A stretch of DNA of 43,235 bases from an uncultured bacterium (GTDB lineage Bacteria > Cyanobacteriota > Vampirovibrionia > Gastranaerophilales > Gastranaerophilaceae), in NCBI GenBank assembly GCA_947073645.1, contig CAMTMK010000015.1, positions 1 to 43,235 on the forward strand, given 5' to 3'. The notes under the pieces are model-generated. The model made no database searches. It had not been told where the DNA came from and saw nothing but the letters and a program-made list of their open reading frames with translations. A program made the position numbers and the translations under genes. The number at the start of each line of letters is the position of its first letter. The stretch's first letter is position 1. This document shows, in pieces, positions 7,462 through 39,098 of this stretch.

Positions 7462-8303
7462 ATGAAAAATTTAAGCATGAATCGGCTCGTCGGGGGGGGG
7501 GCAATCTAAGCCAATCTCCATTTATTGAAAGTTTATCCAAAACCCATGTGTCGGGTCCGGCGGTACGCTGGGGCTTTACTTTGGCTGAGGTTTTAATTAC
7601 CATTGGCATTATTGGTGTTATTGCGTCCTTAACCATACCTAATATTGTTAATAATCATTTAGAAAAAAGACGTATAGTACAATTAAAAAAAGCTTATAAT
7701 ACTATAAGCAGAGCCTTTGATATGGCTATAGCAGAAAATGGAACGGTTGATAATTGGTGTGCTCGACCGGTTAATTGGGATGAATGTTCTGTTGATATTA
7801 CAAATAAAATTTTACCATATATGCAAAAGGTAAAATTATGTAAGGGCGATGCTCAGTGGAATTCTAAATACTGTTTTGCAACTTCTTATAAAAATTTAGA
7901 GGGTGGAATTGCCGGATTATGGCTTAATAAAGAAAAGCTTTTCAGAACTTCGGATGGTGTTTCATTTAATATTAGGGCTGATTGTTGTGATATGTTTAGT
8001 CAATATTGGTGCACAGGTACAACAAATGGCTATATGAATAATTGCGGGAGTGTTAATGTTGATATAAACGGACCTGATGGTCCAAATGTTGCCGGGAAAG
8101 ATTACTTTTATTTTTCAATAAGGAAAGATAAAATTCTACCTTTAGGAATACAGCAGGATACTCATTATTTACGCTCATTTAGTAACAGGTGTCTAAATTT
8201 TGGAGATGCCTGTGCAGGGTGGGTAATTTATAATGAAAATATGGATTATTTGCACTGTAAAGATTTGGATTGGAATGGCAAGAACAGCTGTAAGCAAAAA
8301 TAA
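7462..8303 (+). CDS. prepilin-like protein, frame interrupted at a G10 tract (predicted phase OFF)
   Basis: The ATG at 7462 has AAAGGAG four bases upstream but, with ten G at 7492-7501, reads only 15 codons to TAA 7507. The frame from 7510 onward is open to 8303 and encodes a type IV prepilin or pseudopilin: GFTLAEVLITIGIIGVIASL is the cleavage/methylation segment with hydrophobic helix and Glu at +5. Eleven G (or eight) would join ATG 7462 to this frame and give 280 aa with a leader of about 38 residues. The mature part is Cys-rich with short Gly/Asn loops, as in surface or minor pilins. A GTG at 7548 could start a short-leader form (251 aa) but lacks a Shine-Dalgarno. Tract length may vary in the population. 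Confidence 0.8.
7492..7501 (+). repeat. G10 homopolymer tract (prepilin-like gene)
   Basis: Ten consecutive G begin 30 bases after ATG 7462, in the context GTC-G10-CA. With ten G the gene is out of frame; with nine it also stops early; with eleven it is open. See also 29202 and 37976. Confidence 0.95.
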
Positions 8304-29177: not shown

Positions 29178-30017
29178 ATGTCTTTAATTAATAAAATTGT
29201 CGGGGGGGGGGCACAATTAGCAGAAAAGGCTAAGCCTTCATTTAGATTTGGACCTTGGCAGCAAATGGGTGCTGTTACAAGACCTGCCGACACAAGAACA
29301 ACAGAACAATTACTTGCAAATATTGATTATTTTGCAGAAAATTTGCCGGAAGTTGCGCTGTTTAAGAAAGAATTAAAGGGAATGAACCCTCAGCATTTAG
29401 GCTTAGTTTCAGATATTTGTGAACTTGGAGCCAGAATGGATATGATTAATACTAATATTAATATTAGAAAACCTGCATCAAATGGTAAAAGTTTATTAGA
29501 ATTTTTGATGGAAAAATTGCCTTGGGCTTCAAAAGAAAACCCTGAAATGATTGAATTCTCTAAAGAGGTTATTAACCATACAGATACAACTGCTTCTAAA
29601 TATTTCTTAGGAAGTTTTGCTGAAGTTTTTGAACATCCCGAAGCGGCTAAACATTTGAAAGCAACAAAACCGTTGATAAAAGATATTGCTGAAGTGACTT
29701 TAAGCGGCGGTTATACTATGGATTATTCAAAAGAACAAAAATTTGTAAATGCTCTTAGTTCTTATATTAATCCTTCAGTAAATCCTGAAAAAATTGAAGT
29801 TGTTAATGAAGCTGTCAGAACAGTTGAAAAACTTCCAGAAAGCGTGGATTTATCTTGTAAAATAGTGAGTACAGACATTATTAATAGTACTACTTCTGCA
29901 CAACAAATGAGAGAAAATCTTGAAACGTTCTCACAAATTGCAGAAGGTTTGTCTAAAAGAACTAAAGAAGTAAATTTAACAGATTACATAATTAAAAATG
30001 TTAATTTAACGGAATAA
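29178..30017 (+). CDS. unknown protein with G10 tract after codon 8 (predicted phase ON)
   Basis: 279 aa, not recognised. The start MSLINKIVGGGAQ contains the ten-G run 29202-29211; eleven G gives a stop 8 codons later and nine G a stop within three, so expression depends on tract length. The rest is soluble and largely helical with no signal peptide, membrane segment or Cys cluster of note. GAAAGGG lies eight bases before ATG 29178. It is a single gene between divergent receiver and convergent histidine-kinase genes, overlapping the latter by 17 bases. A cell-surface or host-interaction role is possible from the switching, but unproven. Confidence 0.75.
   Translation: MSLINKIVGGGAQLAEKAKPSFRFGPWQQMGAVTRPADTRTTEQLLANIDYFAENLPEVALFKKELKGMNPQHLGLVSDICELGARMDMINTNINIRKPASNGKSLLEFLMEKLPWASKENPEMIEFSKEVINHTDTTASKYFLGSFAEVFEHPEAAKHLKATKPLIKDIAEVTLSGGYTMDYSKEQKFVNALSSYINPSVNPEKIEVVNEAVRTVEKLPESVDLSCKIVSTDIINSTTSAQQMRENLETFSQIAEGLSKRTKEVNLTDYIIKNVNLTE
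29202..29211 (+). repeat. G10 homopolymer tract (gene at 29178)
   Basis: Ten G starting 24 bases after the ATG, in the same GTC-G10-CA context as the tract at 7492. With ten G the frame is open. Confidence 0.95.
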
Positions 30018-31654: not shown

Positions 31655-33853
31655 CTAATTTTTCTTTTTAGCGTGTTTTGCTTTTCCGTTGTTTCGTTTC
31701 GGAGCATTTGGCAGTGCATAAGATGTTTGAATACGTTTAACACTGTAAACATCAGGGATAGCTTGAATACTTAAAATAACTTTTTTCAAAGTATCAATAT
31801 TATCAAGTTCTATACCAAGCTCTATAATACCTATTTTACCGCTTTTTGATTTAACGTTTGCATAAGTAATATTTGTGTTGTTGTCAGAAACTGCTGCGAT
31901 AATATCTTTTAACAAGCCCATTTTTTCGGCAGTTTCAACACGGATTGTTGTGTTGTAAGTTTTATTTACATTATCGCCTGACCATCTTATGTCCATTAAT
32001 CTTTCAGGTTCAACATGTTCTAATGTCTGGCAGTCCATTCTGTGAACTGTAACGCCTTTAGCACGGGTTACAACACCGACAATGGGTTCGCCGGGGATTG
32101 GAGAACAACATTTTGCAATTGAATATAAAAGGCCTTCCAGTCCGATAATGTCTTTGTCTGATTTCTTTTTAACTGTACCATGAAATTCAGGTGTTTTTGG
32201 GGCTTCCGGTTTTTTAAGTTTGTTGATAACTTTGTTTAATGTAGTTTCGCCATAGCCTAATGCTGCAAATAAATCATCTGCTGAGAGATAATTCATTTGT
32301 TTTGCGATTTTGTCAAATTCTCCTGATTTATAATGTTCATCAAAAATAGCTTTTGTAAGTTCATGTTCAAGGTTTGACCTGCCGACTTCAATATGTTCTT
32401 CGCGATTATTCTTTTTGAACCATTGTTTAATTTTTGATGATGCCTGTTTAGTGACAACAAAATTAAGCCAGTCAAGACGCGGGGCAGGGGTTTTTGATGT
32501 TAAAATTTCAACTATATCGCCGTTTCTAAGCTTTGTATCAAGCTGTGCAATTCTGCCGTTTATAAGTGCACCTACGGTTTTATTGCCGACTTCCGAGTGA
32601 ATTCTGTATGCAAAGTCAACAGGTGTTGCGTTAACAGGCAGGTCGAATACGTCGCCGTTTGGAGTGAAGGCAAATACCTGGTCTGAGAATAAATCTATTT
32701 TTACCGAGTTTACGTAATCTTCTGCGGAAGTAACATCTTTGTTATATTCAACAAGTTTTCTCATCCAAGAAAACTGCATATCTGTCGGGTTATTTGCTTT
32801 CTGAGAGCCTTTTTCTTTATATCTCCAGTGAGCGGCAACCCCGTATTCTGCAATTTCATGCATTTCCCATGTTCTGATTTGGACTTCCAAAGGTTTTGAG
32901 CGCGGGCCGATAACAGATGTGTGTAAAGATTGATAGCCGTTGCCTTTCGGCATTGCAATATAATCTTTAAATCTTCCGGGAATTGGTTTAAATTGTGAGT
33001 GAATAAGCCCGAGAACTTCGTAGCATTCTTTTTCACTGTCAACAATTACACGGACAGCTGTAATATCATAAAGGTCATGGAACGCTATATTTAAGCGTTT
33101 CATTTTACTGTAAATACTGTAATAATGTTTTGCTCTGCCTGTAATTTGCGCGTTAATTCCGCTTTTTTGAACGTCTTGTGAAATCTTTTCAATAAGGAGT
33201 TTTACTGTGGCTTCACGTTCAATCTTTTTTTGCGCAACGAGCTGTGCAATTTCAAAATATTTGTCAGGTTCCAGATAACGTAATGATAAATCTTCAAGTT
33301 CGGCTTTAATTCTTCCGATACCGAGGCGGTTAGCAAGAGGTGCAAAGATATCAAGGGTTTCTCTGGCAATTTTTTGCTGTTTATTGGAAGCCATAAAGTT
33401 AAGAGTGCGCATATTATGCAATCTGTCAGCAAGTTTCAGAAATACAATTCTTATGTCATTAGCCATTGCAATGAATAAACGTCTGAAGTTTTCGGCTTGG
33501 CGTTCTTCTTTCGACTTAAACTGTAATTTGCCGAGTTTTGTAACCCCTTGTACAAGAGTCAGTACATCTTTGCCGAAAAGTTGTTCAATTTCTTCGGGTT
33601 GAGTTTCTGTGTCTTCCAAAATGTCATGTAAAAATGCTGCCATTAATGTGTGGCTGTCGACTTTTAGTCCGACAAGAATTTTTGCAACTTCTACAGGATG
33701 AATTATATATGGTTCTTCTGAAATCCGGTACTGCCCATCATGCAGACGTTTTGCAAAAAGGTATGCTTTTTCGATTTCTGCAATTTCCTGCGGTTCTCTA
33801 TTTTGTGCTATAAGTTCATTTTTAATATCTTCAAAAAGCGGTTTTTCTATCAT
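31655..33853 (-). CDS. rel: bifunctional (p)ppGpp synthetase/hydrolase
   Basis: 732 aa RelA/SpoT homologue. The hydrolase HD domain has HDGQYR and FLHDILEDT (HDxxED present); the synthetase has RAKHYYSIYSKM, GRFKDYIAMPKGNGYQSLHTSV (RxKD form, as in bifunctional enzymes); then TGS (VFAFTPNGDVFDLP) and a C-terminal ACT. ATG 33853 is preferred over 33871, because the latter lies within the promoter: TTGAAA-16-TATGAT ends nine bases before 33853, and neither start has a Shine-Dalgarno. The kinase gene follows after one base. Confidence 0.95.
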   Translation of the reverse strand: MIEKPLFEDIKNELIAQNREPQEIAEIEKAYLFAKRLHDGQYRISEEPYIIHPVEVAKILVGLKVDSHTLMAAFLHDILEDTETQPEEIEQLFGKDVLTLVQGVTKLGKLQFKSKEERQAENFRRLFIAMANDIRIVFLKLADRLHNMRTLNFMASNKQQKIARETLDIFAPLANRLGIGRIKAELEDLSLRYLEPDKYFEIAQLVAQKKIEREATVKLLIEKISQDVQKSGINAQITGRAKHYYSIYSKMKRLNIAFHDLYDITAVRVIVDSEKECYEVLGLIHSQFKPIPGRFKDYIAMPKGNGYQSLHTSVIGPRSKPLEVQIRTWEMHEIAEYGVAAHWRYKEKGSQKANNPTDMQFSWMRKLVEYNKDVTSAEDYVNSVKIDLFSDQVFAFTPNGDVFDLPVNATPVDFAYRIHSEVGNKTVGALINGRIAQLDTKLRNGDIVEILTSKTPAPRLDWLNFVVTKQASSKIKQWFKKNNREEHIEVGRSNLEHELTKAIFDEHYKSGEFDKIAKQMNYLSADDLFAALGYGETTLNKVINKLKKPEAPKTPEFHGTVKKKSDKDIIGLEGLLYSIAKCCSPIPGEPIVGVVTRAKGVTVHRMDCQTLEHVEPERLMDIRWSGDNVNKTYNTTIRVETAEKMGLLKDIIAAVSDNNTNITYANVKSKSGKIGIIELGIELDNIDTLKKVILSIQAIPDVYSVKRIQTSYALPNAPKRNNGKAKHAKKKN

Positions 33854-37862: not shown

Positions 37863-39098
37863 ATGGGAAAAGTTCAAGCTATTAAAGCCGGTTTAAACTT
37901 ATTTAGGACAAGAACTGTTTCAGTAAGCAGTAAACGATTATTTTCGTTTGCCCAAAGGCATAAATTTAAAACTTCGGGGGGGGGGCTTTCTGAGGATGGA
38001 TTAATCCTTACTCATTTGTCGTACCATCCTCCACGTAACGGGTTTATCGATACAGCAAGGTCGGGTGCGGGAATGTCCAGAGATAGCGTTCATTTTGCCG
38101 TTAATCATGGTGTTCAGGCGCATGTGGGTGGAGCTTGGAATAGTTGTGACTATGCAGTTTTGATGCCAATGAGTTCAGCAAGACAAACCGTGGGTAATAA
38201 ATTTGCGGGAGGAATCGCTGCGGATTTTTATTCTAAAGGAAAGGTGAAAATTCCGAAAGGCTCGGTTATTGTGCGGCGAAGTGCAAGTATTCCCGAAGGA
38301 AAGTATCGTATTTCAGATGCGTCAAAAATCAAGGAATTTAAGGAGTTGCATGGAGTAATGGTAATTGAAACTTCTTCAATGGATATGGTTTCAGACGTTA
38401 ATAATATCATACGCAGGCTTGGGTATAAAGTTAAATCAGGAGGTTTTACTTGGGGTGATTCATTGCATGATTTTAATTTGTTTAATTCTTTTTTAAGAGC
38501 AAATGGAATGAAACCTATGATGCACACTTATACTCCGAATGGAAAAATTGAAGTATTAATTGAACATCTGCAGGTACGTGCTAAAAAACTTTCGGATTGG
38601 ACCGTTAAAGATAAAATGGGCGAAGTTATATTTGATTACAGGCAAGAATATTTACAATCCTTAAAATATATTGAAAAATTTGCAAATGAAACAGGTTTTC
38701 CAAAGGATTTTGATACTAAACAACTTGCTGAAATAATTCGGACTTCAGCTACTCCACAAGAGGCAATGAAGTTAATAGAAGCTAAGTTTAAAATAATAAA
38801 ATCAATGAACGTATTACAATCCGAAGCATCTGAGTTAGAATTACTGCAAGGTTTTAGAATGCTGGTTGGTGGCAGTAAATCTGCACAAATTTCGGATAAT
38901 TTAGTTTGTGAATTTTTGAGAAAGCCTAATAAAACAAGATTGCAAAAAATTCAAAAAGCTCCTGTTGCCTTAGAAACGGTACCTGAGCAGTTAATGGTGC
39001 AAAATCCTGCTCTGCGAAGTTCAGTGACGGAAATTGCCGGACAATACGGTTTAAAACTTGATAATACGGTTGCAAATAGGTTATATGAGTTAGGTTGA
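37863..39098 (+). CDS. unknown protein with G10 tract after codon 37 (predicted phase ON)
   Basis: 411 aa from ATG 37863 with AGGAG seven bases upstream; the earlier in-frame ATG at 37833 has none. The run of ten G at 37976-37985 encodes part of SGGGL; with eleven G a stop follows in three codons, with nine in seven. The basic N-terminus is followed by a region with GFIDTARSGAGMSRDSVHFAVNH (about 62-84), which looks like a folded enzymatic or binding domain, and a helical, Lys-rich C-terminal half. No family recognised. Overlaps the convergent epimerase gene by nine bases. Switchable expression hints at an exposed or costly product. Confidence 0.75.
   Translation: MGKVQAIKAGLNLFRTRTVSVSSKRLFSFAQRHKFKTSGGGLSEDGLILTHLSYHPPRNGFIDTARSGAGMSRDSVHFAVNHGVQAHVGGAWNSCDYAVLMPMSSARQTVGNKFAGGIAADFYSKGKVKIPKGSVIVRRSASIPEGKYRISDASKIKEFKELHGVMVIETSSMDMVSDVNNIIRRLGYKVKSGGFTWGDSLHDFNLFNSFLRANGMKPMMHTYTPNGKIEVLIEHLQVRAKKLSDWTVKDKMGEVIFDYRQEYLQSLKYIEKFANETGFPKDFDTKQLAEIIRTSATPQEAMKLIEAKFKIIKSMNVLQSEASELELLQGFRMLVGGSKSAQISDNLVCEFLRKPNKTRLQKIQKAPVALETVPEQLMVQNPALRSSVTEIAGQYGLKLDNTVANRLYELG
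37976..37985 (+). repeat. G10 homopolymer tract (gene at 37863)
   Basis: Ten G, 113 bases after the ATG, in the context TTC-G10-CTT. With ten G the frame is open. Confidence 0.95.

Follow-up and report, generated by a model that had tools for sequence, protein, structure and literature searches.

A G10 tract near the start of a syntenic gene from gut Candidatus Melainabacteria and the genome-wide tract class around it

Neisseria combines phase-variable pili with antigenic variation of pilin, and KOPS and Chi are polar motifs oriented with replication. Poly-G/C tracts have been surveyed with PhasomeIt in Campylobacter, where their lengths peak at 9 (53%) and 10 (26%) and only 5% of the tracts in open reading frames (ORFs) read C on the coding strand; as origins of tracts the survey gives glycine codon drift and point mutations that repair disrupted tracts (PMC6321876).

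The tracts described here resemble those of Campylobacter in several respects. The genome is AT-rich and carries tens of poly-G tracts, mostly in ORFs, with a length peak at 9–10; occurrence among homologues is patchy, and slippage would switch reading frames. Unlike in Campylobacter, length is held more tightly around 10, the tracts share a flank, their targets are mostly pilins, and most copies are OFF by one base. The coding strand reads C in 20 of 49 pilin tracts of the source genome, against 5% in Campylobacter, so that the preference for G on the coding strand seen there in about 95% of ORF tracts does not hold here; this follows from the strand being tied to the contig (replication) and not to the gene. 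Judged from sequence, the class may work like a Campylobacter-type system with a strand rule, flank, length and OFF-by-one default of its own.

As in Neisseria, the targets form a repertoire of pilus proteins that would be expressed only partially at any given moment; unlike in Neisseria, every pilin copy has its own start codon and a ribosome-binding-site-like sequence. As with KOPS and Chi, the tracts are G-rich and co-oriented along each replichore. They differ from those motifs in being a much longer homopolymer, in being coupled to reading frames and in their concentration in one gene family: placement is not independent of gene family, since type IV pilin-like genes hold 53 of the 65 ORF-assigned tracts of the source genome, between the start codon and FTLAEVL.

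The 29178-30017 gene and its tract

The window, the whole 43,235-nucleotide stretch analysed, comes from the source MAG (G000; 1.71 Mb, 37 contigs). It contains 9 overlapping matches to G8 or more, which amount to three G10 runs (Table 1); 0.09 are expected in shuffles.

Table 1. Tracts and tract-bearing genes of the window
Feature	Position	Strand	Description	Basis or detail
G10 tract	7492..7501	+	Leader of pilin-like gene; OFF as assembled	G11 or G8 restores frame
Pilin-like gene	7462..8303	+	ATG 7462 and FTLAEVL share a frame only if the tract has a different length	
ATG ORF	29178..30017	+	279-aa all-helical protein, function unknown	Single-copy and syntenic in the genus
Tract with flank	29197..29221	+	TTGTC-G10-CACAATTAGC	Comparison with all G000 tracts and the four-genome consensus
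G10 tract	29202..29211	+	Codons 9-11 and first base of codon 12; ON	Frames computed
Gene with 37976 tract	37863..39098	+	Function unknown; 411 aa from ATG 37863	
G10 tract	37976..37985	+	ON; non-pilin gene	

An earlier note had placed a G10 run at codons 9-12 of the 29178 gene, and direct reading bears this out; the run is in frame as assembled. That the gene is all-or-none on tract length follows from its sequence: a G9 version encodes 13 aa, with the stop at the third codon past the tract, as the note had it, and a G11 version encodes 18 aa. For G11 the claimed truncation stands, with six more codons before the stop instead of the eight first given. The wider statement that any slip truncates the product is true from the ATG and fails if a TTG 5 nt before the tract is used, where G11 opens a 273-aa ORF; an escape from truncation through this start is weakly suggested. 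SSR phase variation is recognized by a homopolymer of about 8 or more in frame near the start and by a product truncated through a one-unit change of length, and the gene shows both, the second with the exception of the TTG start. The tract is as real as the note had claimed, and it is not singular, being one among about 67 similar sites in the genome.

The 29178 protein has no significant match in Pfam or NCBIfam. Its structural model is all helical and of high confidence (pLDDT 89.4), with residues 1-15, where the tract lies, disordered. Foldseek returned no match to the model at E 0.001 or better, and the VIA-align rows were discarded: they are mostly designed helical repeats with Z of 10 or less, the range of common helical arrangements. 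The gene and the convergent histidine kinase ORF overlap by 17 bases (30001-30017). The kinase and RelA/SpoT ORFs as listed overlap by 98 bases (31655-31752), so one of the two starts probably lies further in.

The gene is matched in 23 of 33 genus genomes, G000 counted in. The order T2SSE ATPase, response regulator, 29178 gene, histidine kinase is the same in the 21 relatives' loci with neighbours found, which makes the orthology of the gene firm. Its protein diverges faster than its surroundings, with 28-76% identity between the window's protein and those of relatives against 92-99% for the adjacent response regulator. Among the 22 further genus genomes that carry the gene, G runs at the tract site never reach six. 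Interruption of the tract in relatives, which the earlier note counted against its own reading, is half borne out: the nearest relative (G030, 77% identity) reads GTC-GGTAGTGGGG-CACA where G000 reads GTC-GGGGGGGGGG-CACA, a difference of base changes only, with length unchanged. Which state is the older is not certain, but the more distant relatives are without the tract too. By these comparisons the gene appears to be an ON, species-specific, non-pilin member of the tract class.

The 37863-39098 gene repeats this pattern: it is present in 5 of the 33 genus genomes (G000 counted in), and its tract is missing in four orthologues with length unchanged. Its protein has no match in Pfam or NCBIfam. 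The pilin-like gene at 7462-8303 has an N_methyl match in its downstream part, below the cut-off. Annotation would start this gene at GTG 7548; ATG 7462, which has a good ribosome-binding-like site, stands before the G10 in another frame.

The tract class and its strand rule

Runs of G8 or more number 67 in G000 (42 G10, 10 G11, 9 G9, 4 G8 and 2 G12). Length is near-fixed at 10 in the genomes G011 and G015, and 45 of 47 tracts on contig C1 of G011 are G10. Runs of G6-G7 are almost absent, at a genomic GC content of 35%, and shorter or interrupted forms of the motif, such as a decay series would leave, are missing beyond one G8-A case. The flank consensus from four genomes is TTC-G10-CAnTYTnAGC, with single positions often varying. 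It is alike in G-reading and C-reading genes and weaker in non-pilins; being common to all three kinds of site, it is not merely a product of coding. The flank of the 29178 tract fits this consensus in part only, at the CA, T and AGC positions.

Within the genus the number of tracts per genome ranges from 0 to 179, and species with none or few have few pilins, whose leaders, where read, are plain and MKKGFTLAEV-like. G003, G023 and G024 are among the tract-poor genomes. An assembly artefact was considered and rejected: the flanks are unique, all but one of the 33 genus genomes contain G8 or longer, and two species have tracts at orthologous sites in common. Across the wider family occurrence is patchy, and some genera have a different flank. 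In the sister genera g3, g4 and g29, poly-G runs followed by CT are at least as many as those preceded by TC, that is, the flank is another one.

The tracts stay on one strand per contig, whatever the direction of the gene. Neighbouring tracts are on the same strand in 44 of 45 pairs in G000 (one switch) and, among C-flanked tracts only, in 42 of 44 pairs in G013 (two switches). In G015 the sign of GC skew flips in the intervals where the tract strand flips. In the stretches of G000 that were read, the skew-positive strand carries the G tract in 20 of 21 single-strand contigs, the exception being C14; contig C4 carries tracts on both strands. Skew is weak in G011 and disagrees locally and in part with tract strand on C3, and some tracts followed by A or T, not C, break the strand rule in other genomes (G001 and G013). 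Because of the skew exceptions and the rule-breaking tracts, 'leading strand' stands here for what we infer from GC skew.

A general skew of G runs was rejected as the source of the rule: runs of 3-5 are weakly skewed or not at all, while runs of 8 or more are one-sided. In G015 the dnaA gene, tried as a marker of the origin, lies elsewhere than at the strand switch. Most simply, one may guess that such a run persists in just one orientation with respect to the replication fork. Strand-dependent stability or selection are candidate causes of the strand locking, of a length held so close to 10 and of the missing intermediates.

Reading frames, selection and rival readings

Frame counts assume a start codon picked by a simple ribosome-binding-site rule. 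On that assumption, 124 of 140 assigned pilins in four genomes are in frame only at a length of 2 mod 3 (G11, G8), and the modal G10 is therefore OFF. Only 13 of the 140 are ON as assembled, which excludes a random frame phase (1/3 ON). The ON share is 7 of 11 in non-pilins (hand reading), the 29178 gene among them, against 10 of 53 in pilins.

The coding sequence behind these tracts is conserved. Comparing G001 with G011 gives pilin pairs of which nearly all have at least one out-of-frame copy; their dN/dS values are 0.08-0.29, and some of those with high dS may be paralogues. Pooled pN/pS is 0.16 for the tract pilin pairs above 80% identity, which indicates purifying selection; OFF copies are still under selection, as SSR phase variation leads one to expect. 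The frame of the flank is kept in all but three of the pairs while length varies, and at least two of the three exceptions adjoin assembly gaps. SSR phase variation also implies ON and OFF length alleles among relatives, and the class has them in three orthologous pilin pairs with unchanged flank frame: L165:5447 and L177:9553 (G10 OFF/G11 ON) and L171:373 (G10 OFF/G8 ON). A phase-variable gene is expected to keep its coding sequence past an out-of-frame tract, and a pseudogene is not; programmed slippage would account for the conservation as well. To annotation, dozens of conserved pilins of these genomes look broken, but selection keeps them.

We lean, with modest confidence, towards reading the 29178 tract as a member of a genome-wide G10 contingency set that serves slipped-strand phase variation of the pilin repertoire. 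Slipped-strand changes, roughly between G9 and G11, would leave each pilin expressed by a minority of the cells, and the population would then show a varying pilin repertoire. Cleavage by prepilin peptidase, established for this pilin family, takes off the leader ahead of the FTLAE helix, so the mature pilin would be left unchanged by the tract. The 29178 gene, ON at G10, would be lost to expression through a slip in a minority of cells. The ON/OFF orthologue pairs and the purifying selection on OFF pilins support slipped-strand switching. Against it stand lengths that are nearly fixed, tighter than the 9/10 peak of Campylobacter; the scarcity of intermediate or interrupted motifs (the G8-A case apart), which slippage and decay would predict; and the strand locking, which has no place in the standard model.

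These same features lend weight to other readings. Programmed decoding would leave the DNA fixed at G10 and reach the second frame by -1 ribosomal frameshifting or by base addition by RNA polymerase at the G10 or C10 run, giving a fixed low expression. It would account for the near-fixed length and the single uniform offset (37 of 37 in G011), for coding sequence conserved beyond the tract, and for a pilin flank that, where G-coding, often places a stop just past the tract in the unshifted frame. It is nevertheless unlikely: in G000 the flank frame is the same for lengths 9, 10 and 11, which would call for different shifts, some of these tracts need no shift at all, tract length varies between orthologues whose flank frame does not, and both the strand locking and the tracts in in-frame genes such as 29178 are left unexplained. 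Variable length with a fixed flank frame favours phase variation over programmed slippage. The strand locking would fit a G10 motif that is a DNA-level site, which some process tied to replication or recombination binds or makes, with the effect on frame a by-product or a secondary use. Such a site could have the polarity of KOPS or Chi, or be copied from a template, in keeping with the likeness of the flank in G-coding, C-coding and non-pilin sites, with a discrete G10 class that lacks both G6-G7 runs and a decay series, and with gain or loss in place at 29178 and 37976 without change of length. We consider this distinctly unlikely, since the concentration in one gene family and the common frame offset point to selection on expression; no enzyme has been identified, Y1 transposases not being found in G000, G001 and G011. 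Repeats borne by IS200/IS605 or RAYT elements were rejected for lack of a PF01797 (Y1 transposase) match in these three tract-rich genomes.

A more specific proposal, which we also regard as distinctly doubtful, is that TTC-...-CAnTYTnAGC sites have exactly ten Gs written or restored by a dedicated process specific to one replication strand, which converts genes in place (perhaps 29178 and 37976) and holds a large set of pilins OFF by one base until the tract changes. For the 29178 tract taken singly, a neutral accident is very unlikely. A glycine stretch in a disordered N-terminus would have drifted to all-G codons, with no switching; the tract is absent in all relatives, residues 1-15 are modelled as disordered, and three glycines giving 9 Gs is an origin route named in the Campylobacter survey (PMC6321876). 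With G6-G7 runs almost absent at 35% GC, however, a G10 that has the class flank and lies on the class strand is hard to obtain by drift alone. Slipped-strand phase variation, if right, would extend large-scale poly-G phase variation to gut Candidatus Melainabacteria, for which the literature searched gave a flagellin paper and no report of poly-G tracts, and would predict a pilin repertoire with only a few members shown per cell. It also raises the question of what confines a tolerated homopolymer to one strand and a single length.

Irregular tract sites

A non-pilin gene (SQPVGGGGSL...SKPDEFVKQ-like) carries a G10 at L068:4508 and on G011 C1 near 350206 (contig reverse-strand coordinates). 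The tract is at the same place in these two distant species of the genus, and the gene is OFF by one base in both.

Tandem double tracts occur in G001, mostly with a short N gap between them (L169:10055-10093, L170:7023-7060, L175:14634-14671 and L180:2770-2806). They are probably contigs that were broken at a tract and then joined; L169:10055-10093, which has no N, may have arisen by genuine duplication. Several G001 and G011 tracts are directly preceded by short palindromes, CTACCTGCGTAGCAG among them (e.g. L171:330-373 and L165:5405-5447), and a dispersed repeat family may lie behind them.
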